Of a DNA stretch of 64,000 bases, positions 10,016 to 53,109 are shown piece after piece. The stretch is from NCBI GenBank assembly GCA_902560075.1, contig CACEKE010000002.1:62001-126000 (forward strand), written 5' to 3'. This stretch comes from an uncultured Pelagibacteraceae bacterium. Its GTDB lineage: Bacteria; Pseudomonadota; Alphaproteobacteria; Pelagibacterales; Pelagibacteraceae. Made by a program: the position numbers and the translations under genes. The notes under the pieces are model-generated. The model saw only the letters and a program-made list of their open reading frames with translations, made no database searches and was not told where the DNA came from. Position 1 is the stretch's first letter, and every line of letters begins with the position of its first letter.

Positions 10016-10825
10016 ATGAGCAAAGAAAATCCGAGCATTAATGACGCTAGACGTAAAAAGTTTGAAAAAAACCCAATTAATGGAACTAAATTTACTATAG
10101 CTATATCTAGTGCTAAAGGAGGTGTAGGAAAATCTACATTTGCAACTAATCTAGCTTTAGCATTAAAGAATCTTGGATTAAAAATTGGTATTTTAGATGC
10201 CGACATATATGGGCCTTCTTTGCCGAAGCTATTTTCAATAAAAGAAAAGCCAGAGAATAAAGAAGGTAAACTAATTCCAATCTCAAAATATAATATTCAA
10301 TGCATGTCTATGGGCTTCTTAACAGATGAACAAACACCAATGATTTGGAGAGGGCCAATGGTTACAAGTGCAATCAAAACTTTTACTCAAAAAGTTGATT
10401 GGAAAAATTTGGATTTTATAATCGTTGATATGCCACCTGGCACTGGGGATACTCAGCTTACTTTTGCTCAAGAAATAAAAGTGGATGGAGCAATAATTGT
10501 TTCAACACCTCAAGAACTTGCTCTTCAAGACGTGAAAAGAGGTATAGCAATGTTTGATAAATTAAAAGTAAATGTTATTGGCTTAATTGATAATATGAGT
10601 TTTTTTATTGGTGATGATGGCAAAAAGTACTCTATTTTTGGTGATGGAGGAGTAAAAAAAACGGCTGAAGAATTTAATAAAAAGTTTCTTGGAGAAATAC
10701 CAATTAACTCAGACATTGGAAAATTTGGTGATCAAGGTAAGCCAATAGTTGAAAACATGCCAGAACACGAGATTTCAAAATTATATTTGAAATTGGCTGA
10801 ACAAATTAAATCAATTTATCTTTAA
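10016..10825 (+). CDS. mrp: Mrp/ApbC-type iron-sulfur cluster carrier ATPase
   Basis: [46 protein letters not shown]. Confidence 0.92.
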
Positions 10826-11753
10826 GATTAAATGCAATCATTAATTCATTCCATTCTCTTTTTGATAAATCGGTCTCATCAATCGAAATATTTTCTCCCT
10901 TAATAAGTTTTTTTATTACCTCTTTACCTTTTGATGAAACTTCTGTACCACCAACTCTATAATCCATAAAAGCCTCGTATGTAATAGGTACCCATCTTTT
11001 TAGAGTATCTAGCATTATATCTGCGTAAGCTCGTATTTCATACTGAGCATGGTGGTCAGCTCTAAGTCGTAAAAAATTCATTAAGTTTAACAAATCAGTT
11101 TTCCAATACCATTGCGTGTAGGTATTTAAAGTTAAGTTCATTCTTGCTAATTCTCTGGCTAAACCAGATTTTTTTTCATCTATAATCGATCCATCATAAC
11201 GTTCATTTAACATTGTTTCATAATTATTATATGTTCTTTCTGCATCTCCCTTTAATAAGTCTAAAACCTCTTTAGCTTGCTCTCCGCTAATTACATCACC
11301 TCTTCCTTGTCTATTATTTGTTGATTGAGCTGCAAGATTTTCTTTAGACGGAAGATAAAACTCTTTATCAAGTATAGAGTATCTTGCTGAATATTCATTA
11401 ACATTAGCAGTTCTATGTCTAATCCATTGCCTAGCAATAAATATTGGCAACTTGATATGATACTTTATTTCGCACATTTCAAATGGAGTACTATGCCAAT
11501 GTCTCATTAAGTATTTAATTAAGCCTGCATCTGTATTTACTTTTTTAGTACCCTTGCCATATGATACCCTGGCAGCTTGCACTATAGATGTATCATCACC
11601 CATATAGTCAATTACTCTTATAAAACCATGATCTAATATTGGTAGTGCTTCAAATAATATATTTTCTAAATCAGGGGCAACAACTCTTTTAGTTGTAAAT
11701 TTTTGAGATTGTTGATTTTTTATATCTTTTTTCTGTTCTTCTGTAAGTTTCAA
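10806..11753 (-). CDS. thyX: Flavin-dependent thymidylate synthase
   Basis: ThyX signature [15 protein letters not shown]. Confidence 0.95.
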
Positions 11754-11832: not shown

Positions 11833-13140
11833 TTAATCATTTTTTGTAATTTTGAGGCTAAATCGTTTCTTAGGATAAGGCCACAAGCCTATTAAAGTTG
11901 TGTTATCTTTTCTCCACCTACTTATTTCAGACTTCCATTCAGGACAATTCAGGCAATCTAAAAATTTTAAATAATTAGTATTTAAATTAATTAAGTTTAC
12001 TCTATAATTTGGCCTAAATTCGTATGCTCCAGTTATCAGGGAAGTAAAAATCATTGTACTTAAAATTACTGTCAATGTTGATTTTTTAGACTTTGTTAAA
12101 ATATCAGTTAAAATCAAAATTATTATAACACCCGGTATCACAGCATATCTTCCGCCTATTTGGTTATTTAAACTTCCAATAGATATAACTCCAGCCATTA
12201 TAAAAAAAATAAATATTAAATACCAAGTAGTGTAATTTTTTTTTAAAAAACTAACGATTTCCTTAAATTTAAAAATTGCAAATATGATAAAAATTGAAAA
12301 AAAGATTGTTGTCCATAAAAAAGGGTTATTATTTATATAACTTATTTTTACCCATATCAGATGGGTTAAGTCTCTACCAAAAAAAGGTTTTAAAAATATG
12401 TTATAAATAAAACTAATCAACATATCCTTATTAAAATCGTTCGTAAAAACTGAATTATTAAGTGAATTACTTAATTTTGAATTCAATATTAACCCTAATT
12501 GCAAAAGATTTGAAAATATTAAAATCAAAAAATTAAAAAAATTATATCTATTTTTATTGAAATAAAATTTAATTACATATAACGGGACTAAAGCACATGT
12601 ATAGATACCTGAGACACTGCTAATAAATAATAAAATATGGTTTTCGATTTTTTGCTTTTTATTTAATTTTTTCATAAACAAAATTAAAATAGAAATTAAG
12701 CAAAGATAAATTTGCGAATTTATAGAATTTATCCAAATTTCCGATATAAAAGGCGGCGTTATAAACAACAACAAGGCTCCCAATATTTTTTTATTGTCTG
12801 TGTCAAATAAGTCAGATTCTCTAAATAATGCTATGTAAGATAAGTAAAGGATAATTAAAAATGATCCGTAAACTGTAAAATAAGGCGCATATTCTAAAGG
12901 AACTAATGTAGAAAACCAAGTCAACAGGTTTGGGACTAGATTAAAATAACCTGCACTAGCATCATAATAAAATAAATTTGAATAAAATGAATTGTTTATT
13001 GCAAACAAGAAATGATGACTACCTTCTTCAGCAACGAATCTTGAATTCAAAAAAATATAAGGACTTCTATAAAATGAAAAAATTAATATTAATAATAATA
13101 TTAAGTATTTAAACTTGATGATTGATAAGTTTATTTTCAT
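11833..13140 (-). CDS. Multispanning membrane protein, candidate GT-C-fold glycosyltransferase
   Basis: About 10 or more TM segments; acidic motif in first loop (SRFVAEEGSHHF) after TM1; soluble C-terminal tail. Family assignment is inference. Confidence 0.5.
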   Translation of the reverse strand: MKINLSIIKFKYLILLLILIFSFYRSPYIFLNSRFVAEEGSHHFLFAINNSFYSNLFYYDASAGYFNLVPNLLTWFSTLVPLEYAPYFTVYGSFLIILYLSYIALFRESDLFDTDNKKILGALLLFITPPFISEIWINSINSQIYLCLISILILFMKKLNKKQKIENHILLFISSVSGIYTCALVPLYVIKFYFNKNRYNFFNFLILIFSNLLQLGLILNSKLSNSLNNSVFTNDFNKDMLISFIYNIFLKPFFGRDLTHLIWVKISYINNNPFLWTTIFFSIFIIFAIFKFKEIVSFLKKNYTTWYLIFIFFIMAGVISIGSLNNQIGGRYAVIPGVIIILILTDILTKSKKSTLTVILSTMIFTSLITGAYEFRPNYRVNLINLNTNYLKFLDCLNCPEWKSEISRWRKDNTTLIGLWPYPKKRFSLKITKND

Positions 13141-13247
13141 CTGAGTAATTTATAGAATTTAATTATCGTTTAGCGTCGATATATACTATAAAAATTGTTT
13201 GAAGAATAAATTTAATAAATTAATATGAACCATTCATCAACTGTAGA

Positions 13248-13991
13248 TTGAAAATGAAAATTTCTGTTGTCATACCCTGTTTAAACGCTGCAGCTATAAT
13301 TGAGAAAACCATAAAAACATTAACTAAAAAGTTAAAAAAAATTAATATAAAACAGTACGAATTGATCTTTGTAGATGATGGAAGTAGTGATGGAACAAGT
13401 AGTATCATAAAAAATTTAAAAATTAAGAAATGTAAATTGATTATTAATGAACATAATTTAGGTAAATCATCATCCCTTATAATTGGAATAAAAAAAGCAA
13501 AATATAGCAAAATAATTATTTGGGATTGTGACTTGCCATATTTAGAAAAAATAGAAAAAGTTTTAAAAAATATGAAATATAATGACCTTGTTTATATAAA
13601 TAGAAGATCTAAAAAAAGTAAACTAAAAAAAAATAAAATGAACTTATATCAGACCTGTAGATATTACATTGGAAGTGTTGTTTGTTTGATTTTGGATATG
13701 TTGCTTCTGGATAAGGATACTGGAGACACTCAAGCAGGTTTAAAAGGTTTTAATAAACCAAAAAATTTCGAGAAGATTAATTTTTTATCGCAAAAATTTT
13801 TTTTTGATGCAGAACTAATGATTTTATTTTTTAGATCAAAATATAAAATGAAATCTATTCCTTTAAAGTATGAAATATATGCTGACTCAACTATTAAATT
13901 AATTGCTTTTGAAAACTTTATATATTTATTTGAGTTGTTAAAAATAATTATATTTTACAAGTTTTTTAAGACAAATAATTTTAAGTTATAA
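13248..13991 (+). CDS. Family 2 glycosyltransferase, polyprenyl-phosphate sugar synthase (DPM1-like)
   Basis: KISVVIPCLNAAAIIEKTIKTL, FVDDGSSDGTSSII, NLGKSSSLIIGIKKAK, WDCDLPY (DxD). Confidence 0.85.
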   Translation: MKMKISVVIPCLNAAAIIEKTIKTLTKKLKKINIKQYELIFVDDGSSDGTSSIIKNLKIKKCKLIINEHNLGKSSSLIIGIKKAKYSKIIIWDCDLPYLEKIEKVLKNMKYNDLVYINRRSKKSKLKKNKMNLYQTCRYYIGSVVCLILDMLLLDKDTGDTQAGLKGFNKPKNFEKINFLSQKFFFDAELMILFFRSKYKMKSIPLKYEIYADSTIKLIAFENFIYLFELLKIIIFYKFFKTNNFKL

Positions 13992-13994
13992 AAA

Positions 13995-14843
13995 TTAATA
14001 GGCATCAAAATCTAAATACGAAAAATAACATTTTTTTTTATTTATATCTAAATTTTTTTCACTTATATTTTTATATAAAAAGTTCAATGGAGAAGGTTTT
14101 AAAATTTCGGGAATTTTAAAATGAATAGTTTCGACTTGTTTTGGCAATAAACCTACGAACAAATTTGGCAAAATATCAAATTCTTTTTTATCATAATTTA
14201 ATAAATAATTATTATTTTCTAAATATGAAAAAACTTTGAACTTTGATAAAACACTTAAACTAGTAAACTTAATATTTTCGCCATTTATAATTTTAGCTGG
14301 ATTATGTGGATTTTTTTTTCTCCAATTAATAAGATTTTCGTCCCATATTGATCTGAAAGTATTATTATCAAATTTCATTTTTTCAAATTCAGATAAATTG
14401 TATGTTAAAAAAACGTCTAATTTAGTTAAAAATTTCATAGAAATAGAGCTCATCCATGCTGGTGTAGCTAAAGCATTAGCGATGGCAATAATAAAACTAA
14501 AATTTAATTCTTTTGCATAATCCTCTAGTCTTGACGACATTTCTTTAAAAAGTTTTTGCCCTCTATATCTTTGGTCAACGCATACATTTATAGATTGAAG
14601 TATTTTAATAGGTTTGCCTAAATAATTGAAATTATATGGTATGCCTCCAACTTGACCTATTTCTATATTTTTATCTGTATCAAACGCGTCTATACCTATA
14701 AAACTTCCAAGTGGATTTTTTCTATAAAGCCACGTAAAATAAATAAAATCTTTTTTTTCAGGATATTTCTTAAAACATCTTTTATATAATTCAATATATT
14801 GAGGTAATTTATTCAAATCAGATTTAAAGAATTTGATTGCCAT
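13995..14843 (-). CDS. GNAT-family N-acyltransferase
   Basis: INVCVDQRYRGQKLFKEMSSRLEDYAKELNFSFIIAIAN resembles the GNAT acetyl-CoA binding motif A. Confidence 0.7.
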   Translation of the reverse strand: MAIKFFKSDLNKLPQYIELYKRCFKKYPEKKDFIYFTWLYRKNPLGSFIGIDAFDTDKNIEIGQVGGIPYNFNYLGKPIKILQSINVCVDQRYRGQKLFKEMSSRLEDYAKELNFSFIIAIANALATPAWMSSISMKFLTKLDVFLTYNLSEFEKMKFDNNTFRSIWDENLINWRKKNPHNPAKIINGENIKFTSLSVLSKFKVFSYLENNNYLLNYDKKEFDILPNLFVGLLPKQVETIHFKIPEILKPSPLNFLYKNISEKNLDINKKKCYFSYLDFDAY

Positions 14844-15645
14844 TGATTTTTTTCAAAAAAATTTTTATTTTATTGGAAAAACATAATTCATATTCTTGTT
14901 TTCTATTAGAATGACTATAAAATTTAAAGTATTTTTTTTTAAACAATATTCTTTCTTTTTTATCTGTAAAACCTGGATGAACTAGTAATTCAATAGCAGT
15001 ATTTTTAGTATTTTTATAAAAATTAATTGTTTTAAAAATTGTATCCTCATTCTGATGACCGGTATAAACTAATCCAATAAATTTTTTTTTTTCCAGTAAT
15101 GATTGGTCAAGAAATATATTAAAAAATTTTAAAGTTAAACAAGCAATAATATTCCTTAAGTAATTTATTTTATAAAAATCATTAATTCGAGGCATTAACA
15201 ACTTTTCATTTGAAATTCTAATTTCTGTAATTTTGTATTTTTTTTTTAAATTTTTAATATAATTAAAAATCCATGGTATCATTTGAATATGCTCGTGTCC
15301 GTCTATTTGCAGAGATTTTACTTTATAAAGACTTATAAATTTTCTGATTTGTAATTCAATTTCTTTAAAAATTATCTTTTTATTTCTCTCCTTCAAAAAT
15401 ATTAATTTAAAAAAGTTAAGATTGTTTAAAATTTTTGATTTTTTGTGATGAAGTTCAGTTAAATTTAAATGAAGTTTTATATTTACATTTTTGATATTTT
15501 TTAATTTTATGTGATAAATGTTGGGTAAGTAACTTACCATTACAGAAACGCTATTTATATTTCCTTTTTTTATACAATTTATTATGTTGCTAGATATCTG
15601 CCTTGATCTTCCGAAGTCATCTGCGTGGAAGTAAATTTTATTCAT
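14824..15645 (-). CDS. YdjC/ChbG-family carbohydrate deacetylase
   Basis: Metal-site motifs FHADDFGRSRQIS, LHLNLTE, QIDGHEHIQMIPWIF, LLVHPGF. Confidence 0.85.
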   Translation of the reverse strand: MNKIYFHADDFGRSRQISSNIINCIKKGNINSVSVMVSYLPNIYHIKLKNIKNVNIKLHLNLTELHHKKSKILNNLNFFKLIFLKERNKKIIFKEIELQIRKFISLYKVKSLQIDGHEHIQMIPWIFNYIKNLKKKYKITEIRISNEKLLMPRINDFYKINYLRNIIACLTLKFFNIFLDQSLLEKKKFIGLVYTGHQNEDTIFKTINFYKNTKNTAIELLVHPGFTDKKERILFKKKYFKFYSHSNRKQEYELCFSNKIKIFLKKINGNQIL

Positions 15646-15656
15646 TTTTATTTTTG

Positions 15657-17615
15657 TTAATATAATTTAGGTATACAACTTACTTTGGAAAGTACACTAT
15701 CAAGATTAAATCCTATTATTTCACTGTAAATTTTTAAAGTATCGTATTTTATTTTATTATCTTCCTCAGCTAATTTAAGACCTTCCTCACGTGTTATAAT
15801 ACCTTCTCTAATCTGATTTGCCCTAAAATTATCGTATTCGGAAAATCCTGCAACTGTATAATAAACAAAATTATTAAATGCAGTTTGACCATCGCCCATT
15901 CTCCATTGATTTTTACCGTAAGATATATCACTTTCCCACTCATACTCTTTTTCTAAAGTGTTTATTATTTTTTGTTCTTCCCATTTTTCATATCTAAACA
16001 AATGTAGAAATCTCTCTTTAAGAACAAAACTATGTATGAATGCTTGGGCTGTTGCAAAAAAAGAGGAATTAAAATATGAAGGATTTAAAAAATATTGTAA
16101 TCCATATTTTAATAACATATTTATTTTATTTATAAAACTGTAGTCGTACAAAGTTGGATTATTTTTTAACCTTTCATTTACCCCTAAAAAACCTAAGAAA
16201 AATTCTCTTTGCTCAAGTTGATAGCCTGTTGAATGTATAACCAATTTTAAATTTAATTCTTTTGAAAGTCTTCTACCATATTCATAGAATCCCTTATCTC
16301 CTGCTTGTAACATTGGTATCATTCCTAAGTGAGGACGTTTAAGCCATGCAAATAAATTTTCTCTAACATGAGATCTCCTTTCATCTATTTTTGCTGACCT
16401 TATGATGTGTTCAACACCTAGTTTTCCACATAATTTAGAGGCATTTATCCTTGATATATCTGTTGTGAGGCCCCAATCAAATGTATAGGCAATTGGGTTC
16501 ATTTTATATTTAGTTTTTATTAGATGTAAACCATATGAACTATCGCGTCCGCCACTTAAACCAACAATACAATCAGGTTCACCATTTTTAGATCTATACT
16601 TTTCTAAAATTTTAAAAAGCTTCTCCTCACCGAAAAATTCTTGTTTGTCATATTCTAGACAAAAATTGCATACACCATTGTTGTCAAATTTTATATAAGG
16701 ATAAGTTTCTAAAAGAATACATTTTGTACATCTTTTTAATTTTGAATGTCTTCTTAAATTTTCATCATAGTTATTTGATGTTATTGTATTAATATTTTTG
16801 TTTGTTTCATCTAGTTTTATTTGGTCAAGTTGATCATTAAGTTTAAAAATTTTTATAGAGTTATTGGCATTATTAAATATTATGGTTTCATTTAAACATT
16901 GTTTTATTTGATCTTTTTTTATACTAACACCTAAACTTTGAATAAATTTTGATTCAGCAAGATATTCATATAATATGTTTTTTTCAGAGGCATACGAAAT
17001 CAGTTTTTTATCTTTATCGTAATAATAAAATAATGAACCACAATTAGATGATAATATTATCTCATTATAATCTTTGAGTACAAAAGCAATTGTATAGTTT
17101 CCCCTCATTTTACTAAGTATATTTTTATAGTGATTAATGAAATCTTGGTCTTGAGGGATGTTTGACAATAACTCAAAAAACTTTAAAGAGTCACTTTTGA
17201 TGGAAATGCTTTCATAATTTTTAGTTTTTTCAGCATTTTTATCTAATTCAAAATTAACAAAAATCCCATTATGCACTCCTATTATTTTATCGGTTATTAA
17301 TGGCTGATTATTCTGATCCGAAAATTTTGAACCATTTGTTACCAATCTTGTTTGGCCCATAATATTTAAAACTCCTGAATAATTATTTATTTTTTCTTTT
17401 AAAAAAAGATTATAATCTTTTCTATTTATCGCATCAGAAGGATCTTCATTAATTTTGTAAATAGAATTGTTGTTTTTATCTTTAATAAGAACACCAAATG
17501 TATCTGAACCTCTCTGCTGACTCTTTTGCGCAAGGATATTAATATCTTTTTTTAATATAGAAAAATCTGATTGGTTGTATTTTTTGTTAAATGATATGCC
17601 GAAAATTCCACACAT
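15657..17615 (-). CDS. Fusion: class II (Ntn) glutamine amidotransferase + N-acetyl-sugar amidotransferase (WbpG/PseA/WbuX-like PP-loop with zinc ribbon)
   Basis: N-terminus MCGIFGIS (catalytic Cys2), QRGSDTFG, GQTRLVTNG, NNQPL, HNGI; C-terminal half CTKC...GVCNFC then PP-loop GLSGGRDSSYGLH. Confidence 0.82.
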   Translation of the reverse strand: MCGIFGISFNKKYNQSDFSILKKDINILAQKSQQRGSDTFGVLIKDKNNNSIYKINEDPSDAINRKDYNLFLKEKINNYSGVLNIMGQTRLVTNGSKFSDQNNQPLITDKIIGVHNGIFVNFELDKNAEKTKNYESISIKSDSLKFFELLSNIPQDQDFINHYKNILSKMRGNYTIAFVLKDYNEIILSSNCGSLFYYYDKDKKLISYASEKNILYEYLAESKFIQSLGVSIKKDQIKQCLNETIIFNNANNSIKIFKLNDQLDQIKLDETNKNINTITSNNYDENLRRHSKLKRCTKCILLETYPYIKFDNNGVCNFCLEYDKQEFFGEEKLFKILEKYRSKNGEPDCIVGLSGGRDSSYGLHLIKTKYKMNPIAYTFDWGLTTDISRINASKLCGKLGVEHIIRSAKIDERRSHVRENLFAWLKRPHLGMIPMLQAGDKGFYEYGRRLSKELNLKLVIHSTGYQLEQREFFLGFLGVNERLKNNPTLYDYSFINKINMLLKYGLQYFLNPSYFNSSFFATAQAFIHSFVLKERFLHLFRYEKWEEQKIINTLEKEYEWESDISYGKNQWRMGDGQTAFNNFVYYTVAGFSEYDNFRANQIREGIITREEGLKLAEEDNKIKYDTLKIYSEIIGFNLDSVLSKVSCIPKLY

Positions 17616-17619
17616 AAAA

Positions 17620-18264
17620 TTATTTTATTTTATACAGATAGCTAGTCACAACAAATATCACAAATATGATTAAAAAAGGAATATAAAAATTTTTATCGAG
17701 AAATAAAGTAAAAATTGATATAGAGATACTAAAATCAAAATTAATCATAGATTTTCCAATTGAGTTAAGCGCATATAGCATAGGTATTTCTGAAAGTATC
17801 ACTAATAAAGAAAATTTCTTAAGTTTAATATTTAATATACCATAATAAATATTATGAAAAAAATAAGGAAAAATATATCTTGATAAAATTATAGAATAAT
17901 TGCTTTCGGAAAATTTATTAATATTAATTTTTTTTAATATTTTATTCTTATATTTGGTAAAATCAAAGTACTTATCAATTTTTTTTGCAATTGAAAAAAT
18001 CAAAATTGAGCAAAGGACAACTTGAAAAATAGATATAATAAAACCTAAATTTTGAAAAAAATAGCCATTAGCTATAATAATTAATGTGACTGGTAACGGT
18101 GTAAGAAAATATAAAAATGACACAAAAATAAAAAATAAGGAATAATATTTGTGAATAGATTGATCCTTTATTAACAAATTAGCAAAATAATTATAATCAA
18201 AGAAGTACAAAAACACAAAAATTATAGAGATAAAAAGTAAAATAAAAATAATGATATTTTTCAT
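17620..18264 (-). CDS. DedA/TVP38 (SNARE-associated) family membrane protein
   Basis: Multi-TM; TPLPVTLIIIANGYFFQNLGFIIS and SRYIFPYFFHNIYYGILNIKLKKFSL match the family layout. Confidence 0.65.
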   Translation of the reverse strand: MKNIIIFILLFISIIFVFLYFFDYNYFANLLIKDQSIHKYYSLFFIFVSFLYFLTPLPVTLIIIANGYFFQNLGFIISIFQVVLCSILIFSIAKKIDKYFDFTKYKNKILKKININKFSESNYSIILSRYIFPYFFHNIYYGILNIKLKKFSLLVILSEIPMLYALNSIGKSMINFDFSISISIFTLFLDKNFYIPFLIIFVIFVVTSYLYKIK

Positions 18265-18308
18265 AACACAATGATTGTAAATTTTATAATTAGTTTTATA
18301 TTAATCAT

Positions 18309-18570
18309 GTTGGATTTCCAACTACGACGATAAACGAATTTCGTAATAAACATTGCGGACGTGGGGGCAGTACCCACCACCTCCACCATTGCAACTTAGG
18401 GGGGTGAATTAGGATCGACGGATGTCTAAAGGCTATTCTTTCGTTCGGTATTGTTCCGCCGTAAAGGGCAATTTTATAAATGCAAATAATAAATTTGCAC
18501 TTGCAGCTTAATTAATTTTTATTAATTAAGTTACGGGGTATGGGGCACCTGGCAACAGAACGCCCCTTTT
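18309..18570 (+). ncRNA. ssrA: Circularly permuted two-piece alphaproteobacterial tmRNA: acceptor piece ending ...CACCUCCACCA at 18388, coding piece starting GGGGGUG at 18400
   Basis: Acceptor stem 18400-18406 GGGGGTG pairs with 18378-18384 CACCTCC, including a G3:U70 pair; A73 + CCA 18385-18388; GTGGG-GGCAGTA-CCCAC T-arm equivalent; tag reading frame ending ...ANNKFALAA-TAA at 18511; CCTGGCAACAGAA near the 3' end. Outer ends approximate. Confidence 0.92.
18467..18511 (+). other. tmRNA proteolysis-tag reading frame, (G)NFINANNKFALAA-stop (resume codon uncertain)
   Basis: GGC AAT TTT ATA AAT GCA AAT AAT AAA TTT GCA CTT GCA GCT TAA, followed by a 9-bp hairpin CTTAATTAA/TTAATTAAG. Confidence 0.75.
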
Positions 18571-18592
18571 AAAAATTATATTATTTTTAAAA
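18567..18592. terminator. AT-only inverted repeat between convergent tmRNA and tRNA-Leu, possible bidirectional terminator
   Basis: TTTTAAAAAT-tatatt-ATTTTTAAAA. Confidence 0.4.
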
Positions 18593-18594
18593 CG

Positions 18595-18677
18595 TGCGGC
18601 CAGAGAGACTCGAACTCTCATGGGAAATTCCCACTTGGCCCTCAACCAAGCCTGTCTACCAGTTTCAGCATGGCCGC
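18595..18677 (-). tRNA. tRNA-Leu(GAG), CCA not encoded
   Basis: Reverse complement GCGGCCA...CTTGGTTGAGGGCCAAG...GAGAGTTCGAGTCTCTC TGGCCGC A; long variable arm; acceptor 7 bp. Confidence 0.95.
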
Positions 18678-51807: not shown

Positions 51808-52346
51808 TTGTAAAATTTATTTTCTGTAATAACTAGATCTAGTTTTTTGTCAAAATTATTAATCGGAATTTTATTAACTTTTTGAAAAGAGAAAGCAAAG
51901 CCGATTGATTTAAAAAGCTTTTTTTTTTCTAATTTGGCTAAATATCTGTCGTAATATCCTCCACCGTATCCAATCCTATACAGTTTGTCGTCAAAAGCTA
52001 CTAGAGGAACAAATAAAATATTAGGTAATAGAATTTTACTCTTAAAAGGTTCTGGTATCCCATATTTATTAATTTTCATTGGAAATTTAAATGAATATTT
52101 ATAAAACTCCATATCATTATTATTTTTAATTACTGGGAGGCTTATTTTAATTTTTTCATTCTCGAGTTTTTTAAGTATATTTAAGCAGTCTATTTCATAA
52201 TTTACCGGAATATAACCACCAATAACTGGTTTTACACTATTATTAAAAATAAAGTCTTTAATAATATTAAAACTAATTTTTTTTAAAGGATCAAACTTTT
52301 TTTTTCTTATATTTAAAATTTTATTTCTAATATCTGATTTTTTCAC
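51804..52346 (-). CDS. 5-formyltetrahydrofolate cyclo-ligase
   Basis: VPLVAFDDKLYRIGYGGGYYDRYL. Confidence 0.9.
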   Translation of the reverse strand: MKKSDIRNKILNIRKKKFDPLKKISFNIIKDFIFNNSVKPVIGGYIPVNYEIDCLNILKKLENEKIKISLPVIKNNNDMEFYKYSFKFPMKINKYGIPEPFKSKILLPNILFVPLVAFDDKLYRIGYGGGYYDRYLAKLEKKKLFKSIGFAFSFQKVNKIPINNFDKKLDLVITENKFYK

Positions 52347-52348
52347 TT

Positions 52349-52798
52349 TTATCTATCTAATGATGAATTGACATCAATTTTCTTAATAAAATTTTCTAAT
52401 TTGTTTGTAGTGTCTTCAATAATAGAGTTATAATTATTTTTATTTTTTTCAATTTCAATTTCTAATTCTTTTTGTTTTTCGTTTAATAAATGTATTTGAA
52501 TATCTTTATTTTTTTTAAAATCATAAACTAATGATTTTAGTTCTTTAAATTTATTTTTTATTTCATCGATTTCTTTTTTTTTTTCATTTATTCTTTTTTT
52601 AGTTTCATAATACTCATCTAGAACAGTTATAGAGGTTATTAATAACAATTTGTTCTCACCTATGTTTCCAAGAGTAGTTTTCAATTTATTAAATTTATTG
52701 TTTAATATGTTTGATAGCTCATCAAGATGTTCTTCTTGTCCATCCTCGCAAGACAATAAAAAATCTTTACCATTGAAGTTTATGTTTACATTTGCCAT
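52349..52798 (-). CDS. zapA: Cell division protein ZapA
   Basis: NVNINFNGKDFLLSCEDGQEEHLDELSNILN followed by coiled coil; next to 5-FCL. Confidence 0.83.
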   Translation of the reverse strand: MANVNINFNGKDFLLSCEDGQEEHLDELSNILNNKFNKLKTTLGNIGENKLLLITSITVLDEYYETKKRINEKKKEIDEIKNKFKELKSLVYDFKKNKDIQIHLLNEKQKELEIEIEKNKNNYNSIIEDTTNKLENFIKKIDVNSSLDR

Positions 52799-53109
52799 TT
52801 ATCTATTTCATCAATTAGAATATCCGTTTCCTGATTTAATTCATCAATTTTCTCCTCGAATTTCTTTTCTTTTTTACTTTCTTCTTTTCGCTGTTTATTA
52901 AAATAATCTAATTTAACCTTTAATTGTTCGTACTCATTTTTCATAAAATTATATTTTTTCACTAATTCTGTTTTTTCAATTTCTAATTGATTTTTTTTGT
53001 TTTCTAACAGTTTAATTTCTTTAGAGTTTTTAATAGTTAATATCTCAAAATTTTTCAATTTTTCTAAAGTGTCTAGTAATTTTTTTTCTTTCTCATTAAA
53101 GGAATTCAT
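52786..53109 (-). CDS. Coiled-coil protein overlapping zapA, possible ZauP-like partner
   Basis: 107 aa Glu/Lys-rich coiled coil; 13-nt overlap with zapA. Confidence 0.55.
   Translation of the reverse strand: MNSFNEKEKKLLDTLEKLKNFEILTIKNSKEIKLLENKKNQLEIEKTELVKKYNFMKNEYEQLKVKLDYFNKQRKEESKKEKKFEEKIDELNQETDILIDEIDKWQM

Follow-up and report, generated by a model that had tools for sequence, protein, structure and literature searches.

A candidate envelope-glycan cassette with a fused glutaminase-amidotransferase in a variable slot between thyX and ssrA of a Pelagibacteraceae genome

In the window analysed here, the whole 64-kb stretch of a Pelagibacteraceae genome (G000; 1.18 Mb, about 90% complete), six genes between thyX and ssrA appear to represent one allele of a strain-variable slot for envelope-glycan genes. 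The cassette can be read as an Arn/NaxD-like unit for envelope modification via polyprenyl-phosphate sugars, to which an amidating enzyme has been added. We give this reading of the cassette, and the explanation taken jointly with the slot, about an even chance of being correct. The recurrence of cargo between thyX and ssrA and the distinct single-chain amidotransferase family, which has a conserved VTT-domain neighbour, are both new points of analysis; an initial annotation of the sequence had missed the cargo spot, as well as the separation of the fused form from the HisH/HisF2-dependent enzymes.

All six open reading frames are intact and have family-level matches. The slot is bordered on the left by thyX (10806-11753, minus strand; PF02511, 187 bits) and on the right by a permuted tmRNA gene (ssrA; 18293-18602, plus strand; ARAGORN), which is followed by tRNA-Leu and nadA. 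From left to right, the cassette comprises a candidate GT-C-like membrane glycosyltransferase of 435 aa (11833-13140, minus strand), suggested by a weak fold match and its GT2 neighbourhood; a GT2 of 247 aa resembling polyprenyl-phosphate sugar synthases of the DPMS/GtrB/ArnC type (13248-13991, plus strand; PF00535, 82 bits), whose listed start is TTG, with an ATG two codons further in; a GNAT acyltransferase of 282 aa (13995-14843, minus strand; PF13527, 29.8 bits, and PF00583, 23.8 bits, both above cut-off); a YdjC-family deacetylase of 273 aa (14824-15645, minus strand); a fused class II glutaminase and WbuX/NASAT-like amidotransferase of 652 aa (15657-17615, minus strand), assigned from GATase_7, a sub-cut-off match to TIGR03573, and motifs; and a VTT-domain (DedA/TVP38-like) membrane protein of 214 aa (17620-18264, minus strand; PF09335, 37.8 bits). 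The initial annotation had described the six reading frames, their strands and order, and the 20-nt overlap of the YdjC and GNAT genes correctly, and its enzyme families were upheld by profile searches of the six proteins; the VTT-amidotransferase and amidotransferase-YdjC gaps measure 4 and 11 nt, not 5 and 12. The GT2 gene is convergent with the GNAT gene (3 nt) and divergent from the GT-C-like gene (107 bp). The GC content of the cassette is 23.4%, compared with 30.2% for the remainder of the window, and the lowest-GC 6.4-kb segment of the 64 kb coincides with it (start less than 100 bp away; 0.233 versus a mean of 0.292, SD 0.018), so that, together with the intact reading frames and their family-level matches, the cassette exceeds what chance would produce. 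Another very AT-rich kilobase of the window lies at 52001-53000 (20.6% GC).

At its N-terminus, the 652-aa protein carries a glutaminase domain of class II with Cys2 (GATase_7, 25.4 bits against a cut-off of 25), whose nearest solved relatives are GFAT, and at its C-terminus a WbuX/NASAT-like PP-loop domain with a Cys4 motif. The only significant solved NASAT relative of the protein is LpNASAT (8WEX), an N-acetyl sugar amidotransferase (PMC10607449). Domain profile searches of the 652-aa protein gave no match to an asparagine-synthase domain, and the cassette holds no separate HisH/HisF2 partner genes. The catalytic motifs are intact: the PP-loop reads SGGRDS in the window protein and SGGxDS in all nine fused proteins, nine of nine also have the MCG start and the HNG motif, and the zinc motif CxxC...[GN]xCxxC (C296 and C299 with GVCNFC in the window protein) is complete in eight, the protein at L071 being without the second pair. 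Against TIGR03573 (WbuX/NASAT), the fused proteins tested score 90-139 bits (138.8 for that of the window and 90-134 for its relatives), below the cut-off of 203.2, whereas canonical NASATs at two loci that also hold a fused protein (L072 and L154) reach 281-284 bits. Motifs common to the fused proteins (T[YF]DWG, AGDKxF, and WR[MI]GDG) are absent from these canonical NASATs. Because of these sub-cut-off scores and conserved motifs of its own, the fused form is best regarded, at the level of sequence, as a family apart, namely a distinct and unnamed sister subfamily to WbuX that would generate ammonia by itself and may act on another substrate. Its public annotations (7-cyano-7-deazaguanine synthase (QueC), glucosamine 6-phosphate synthetase, or hypothetical protein) are mislabelling. 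An AF2 model of the fused protein (pLDDT 52) was left out of the evidence. Beside the fused enzyme in L072 (11630-14254) and L154 (11704-14615) lie canonical acetamidino sets of WbuX with HisF- and HisH-like proteins, the latter two called by sequence reading.

The fused protein occurs in 5 of 297 Pelagibacteraceae genomes, the window's included, and is thus accessory. Identity to the window protein is 71-72% in the single-cell genome SAG AG-464-P04, 54-58% in G016 and G245, and 32-37% in G186 and G192, and a partial match with stop codons in G084 may be a broken copy of the gene. Fused relatives outside the family were found in a genome from another family of the same phylum (G602) and on three plasmids, from two Agrobacterium strains and from Solidesulfovibrio (34%). 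Apart from the window's own genome, none of the 190 genomes sampled at class level had such a relative, and a phylum-level sample of 249 genomes contained one. The distant relatives sit in polysaccharide clusters. Near the distant fused enzymes of L154 (1068-4722) and L155 (11822-15479), genes for GT4, a sugar transferase, an acetyltransferase, and DegT resemble the bacillosamine (pgl) set.

In all four of the closest members (the window, L019, L070, and L071), the gene immediately preceding the fused one encodes a VTT-domain protein, and the VTT proteins of the latter three are 32-45% identical to that of the window. In SAG AG-464-P04, which represents a second species (nadA 81% identical), genes for a GT2, a VTT protein, the fused amidotransferase, and a YdjC protein stand in a row beside ssrA; the fused protein is 71% and the YdjC protein 60% (over 72 aa) identical to those of the window, and the GT2 only 28%. 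In two other genera (G016 and G245, with loci L070 and L071), the VTT and fused genes lie within larger glycan clusters, with genes for a UDP-glucose/GDP-mannose 6-dehydrogenase and a DegT aminotransferase upstream of the pair and, immediately beyond the fused gene, a convergent GT2 gene whose product is 45-46% identical to that of the window. At L070, this GT2 is followed by a DUF6311 membrane protein and then a Wzy-type protein.

The profile of the cassette GT2 and its relatives matches DPMS (5mlz) over the full length (positions 1-231), as well as GtrB (5ekp) and ArnC, and the enzyme is accordingly predicted to be of the polyprenyl-phosphate sugar synthase type. The 435-aa protein gave no Pfam or NCBIfam match; the nine best PDB matches of its AF2 model (pLDDT 68) are STT3/PglB, all with E-values of at least 0.02 and none at or below 0.001, and the viral structural neighbours of the model were uninformative. 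Most of its homologues carry E or D near residue 39, an acidic residue being expected in the first periplasmic loop of a GT-C enzyme, and the model weakly suggests a GT-C type. Four homologues were found in 246 other genomes of the family, and a GT2 adjoins, or lies one gene away from, this type of protein in all five cases; the GT2s at L145 and L146 match that of the window by tblastn, and those at L147 and L148 were recognised from sequence only. The pairing of GT2 with GT-C put forward initially is therefore backed by neighbourhood and weakly by fold. The YdjC protein matches PF04794 with 102.6 bits (cut-off, 29.7) and, aligned to solved YdjC enzymes, keeps the metal-site motifs HADDFG, HLNL, and DGHEH; within the same superfamily, NaxD is a deacetylase acting on undecaprenyl-phosphate GalNAc (PMC11279074, a review). 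For the VTT protein, no PDB relative was found and the broad VTT domain PF09335 was the only match; the earlier label DedA is supported to that breadth, and placing the protein in the one DedA subfamily (COG0586) for which Und-P flipping is established (PMC10127716) would go beyond this match. A search of the genome revealed no GtrA-type flippase, which leaves room for the VTT protein, by analogy, as one that could take the flippase role; with about 90% completeness, the missing GtrA counts as weak evidence.

thyX is present in 250 of the 297 family genomes. Among the 98 same-genus genomes (that of the window being one) in which a single contig carries both thyX and ssrA, the interval is empty in 82 (the two genes being about 26-36 bp apart) and holds 0.8-11 kb of cargo in 16, as counted from thyX positions, tmRNA tag positions, and fetched intervals, with part of the distances computed by hand from coordinates. 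The comparison of this interval across SAR11 genomes that the initial annotation had suggested thus reveals a variable, non-core locus with alternative glycan cassettes rather than a set of conserved core genes. Most of the cargo consists of glycan-assembly genes, including those for PMT-type GT-C, Wzx-like, NAD-epimerase, DegT aminotransferase, GT4, methyltransferase, and GSDH-type dehydrogenase families, along with unassigned membrane proteins. No integrase was detected in the window cassette or among 20 scanned cargo proteins, and no direct repeat longer than 10 bp common to both flanks was found. Integrase-mediated insertion into ssrA was rejected on the grounds that neither att-like repeats nor an integrase were seen, as was a viral origin, given that two scans of viral contigs returned no relatives and phages matched part of the glutaminase region only. 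Cargo would likely be replaced via homologous recombination between the conserved flanks.

GT-C and GT2 cargo also occurs beyond ssrA in L145 (5183-6439) and between thyX and mrp in L148 (5937-7827), so that the variable hot region is wider than the thyX-ssrA interval. A short GT2 reading frame (116 aa) adjoining ssrA in L124 (2690-3040) resembles a truncated remnant of former cargo. The tmRNA tag alleles differ within the genus, ANNKFALAA/ANDKFALAA versus ANESYALAA (window 18293-18602; loci L050-L089 and L120-L138), and the former type is associated with thyX-ssrA cargo (8/17 versus 8/81; Fisher p about 0.001). Since tmRNA and thyX identities are without clear discordance, this association may reflect shared ancestry, and an exchange of ssrA together with the cargo is not claimed.

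The GT2, YdjC, and GT-C-like proteins come closest in logic to the Arn and FlmF2/NaxD pathways, where an amino sugar is built on polyprenyl phosphate, loses its acyl group, and crosses the membrane before being transferred on the outer side. For the cassette, we infer a single pathway of all six genes with the following putative substrate, step order, and product. The fused enzyme would free ammonia from glutamine at Cys2 and pass it to the ATP-pyrophosphatase domain, which would activate the oxygen of an acyl or carboxyl group on an amino- or acid-sugar so that nitrogen takes its place, in the simplest form converting an N-acetyl into an N-acetamidino group. A sugar would be loaded on polyprenyl phosphate by the GT2, and an N-acetyl group would be removed by YdjC, with another acyl group perhaps added by GNAT, such that charge is tuned; the amidotransferase would place its nitrogen on the same or a neighbouring sugar. 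The VTT protein may then aid membrane crossing of the lipid-linked sugar or of the empty carrier, and the GT-C protein would attach the sugar, on the outer side, to a glycan or lipid of the cell surface. The initial annotation holds in outline, as regards an accessory envelope-sugar cassette and alternative cargo at the locus. The acetamidino product that it proposed would be plausible by distant similarity; the amidated group may be other than N-acetyl, because the fused protein falls under the WbuX cut-off and differs in motifs. To call the system self-contained was an overstatement, as the cassette includes no nucleotide-sugar synthase and its sugars must come from elsewhere.

The fused enzyme might instead amidate the carboxyl group of a uronic acid, giving a uronamide in place of an amidated N-acetyl group, which we consider rather unlikely but a serious rival. 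Asparagine-synthase-like enzymes form uronamides in other O-antigens, the sugar 6-dehydrogenase and DegT aminotransferase upstream of the VTT-fused pair in G016 and G245 would fit this chemistry, and the separation of the fused subfamily from WbuX, together with its occurrence alongside full canonical acetamidino sets at L072 and L154, speaks for another substrate. However, the synthetase domain resembles WbuX, bears the Cys4 motif, and gave no asparagine-synthase domain match, and the window cassette, which is without a dehydrogenase, has a YdjC and a GNAT protein suited to N-acyl groups. A more far-reaching proposal, and one that we hold to be quite unlikely, is that the fused enzyme would define a new single-chain family amidating another position or substrate than WbpG/WbuX, with the VTT protein as a flippase devoted to the polyprenyl-phosphate sugar so formed, the whole being a minimal exchangeable unit for envelope-charge modification in SAR11.

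The six genes may also combine two independent modules from separate insertions, as is suggested by GT2/GT-C pairs without the amidotransferase in G190, G240, G005, and G220. The VTT-amidotransferase-YdjC-GNAT operon would then act on a glycan made elsewhere and the GT2 and GT-C proteins would work alone. The pair is indeed oriented differently from the operon, and a cluster of further GT2 genes lies on this contig some 50 kb downstream, indicating that other glycan pathways exist. Against this somewhat doubtful alternative, the position of the GT2 (45-46% identical) directly after the fused gene in G016 and G245 implies that the GT2 and the amidotransferase also keep company in genera other than that of the window. 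It is highly improbable that the cassette performs ordinary Arn/NaxD-like addition of an amino sugar to lipid A, with the amidotransferase as a decayed passenger or in the service of another process: the GT2, YdjC, and GT-C-like proteins are essential parts of such pathways, but the amidotransferase retains every catalytic motif tested, is 71-72% identical to its same-locus relative in another species, and is encoded with tight operon spacing.

SAR11 bacteria occur in very large numbers and face intense pressure from phages, and to our knowledge little has been established about their surface glycan chemistry. Should the cassette determine an amidated or re-acylated sugar, it would provide a compact surface marker that differs among strains and lies outside HVR2, and, plausibly, a phage-receptor switch. 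As a single chain, the fused enzyme should lend itself more readily to assay than the three proteins HisH, HisF2, and WbpG, and the thyX-ssrA slot offers a simple presence/absence test across genomes.

The slot resembles the SAR11 regions HVR1-4 in being strain-variable, with HVR2 likewise bearing glycan genes, but it lies at another locus, is usually empty, and is small (0.8-11 kb); the HVR1-4 gene lists show no match to the thyX-ssrA locus, and thyX, tmRNA, and ssrA are absent from the text describing these regions (PMC2217521). With the Arn (ArnC-ArnD-ArnE/F-ArnT) and FlmF2/NaxD systems, the cassette shares a polyprenyl-phosphate sugar GT2, an amino-sugar deacylase (of the YdjC superfamily in NaxD; PMC11279074), and a GT-C-like transferase, and it differs from them in having a VTT protein instead of ArnE/F, an extra amidotransferase and GNAT, and a GT-C-like fold that a weak search places nearer STT3/PglB. 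Like the WbpG/WbuX NASATs, the fused enzyme has the PP-loop SGGxDS and the CxxC...GxCxxC zinc motif and is found in envelope-glycan clusters. Unlike these enzymes, which depend on a separate HisH, it carries an N-terminal class II (Cys2) glutaminase, and the fused proteins score 90-139 bits against the cut-off of 203, have distinct motifs, and occur next to canonical NASATs at L072 and L154. The N-terminal Cys2 glutaminase is shared with class II amidotransferases of the AsnB and GFAT types, and its fusion to a PP-loop synthetase recalls AsnB, whereas the synthetase itself, with no asparagine-synthase domain match, is WbuX-like and bears the Cys4 motif.
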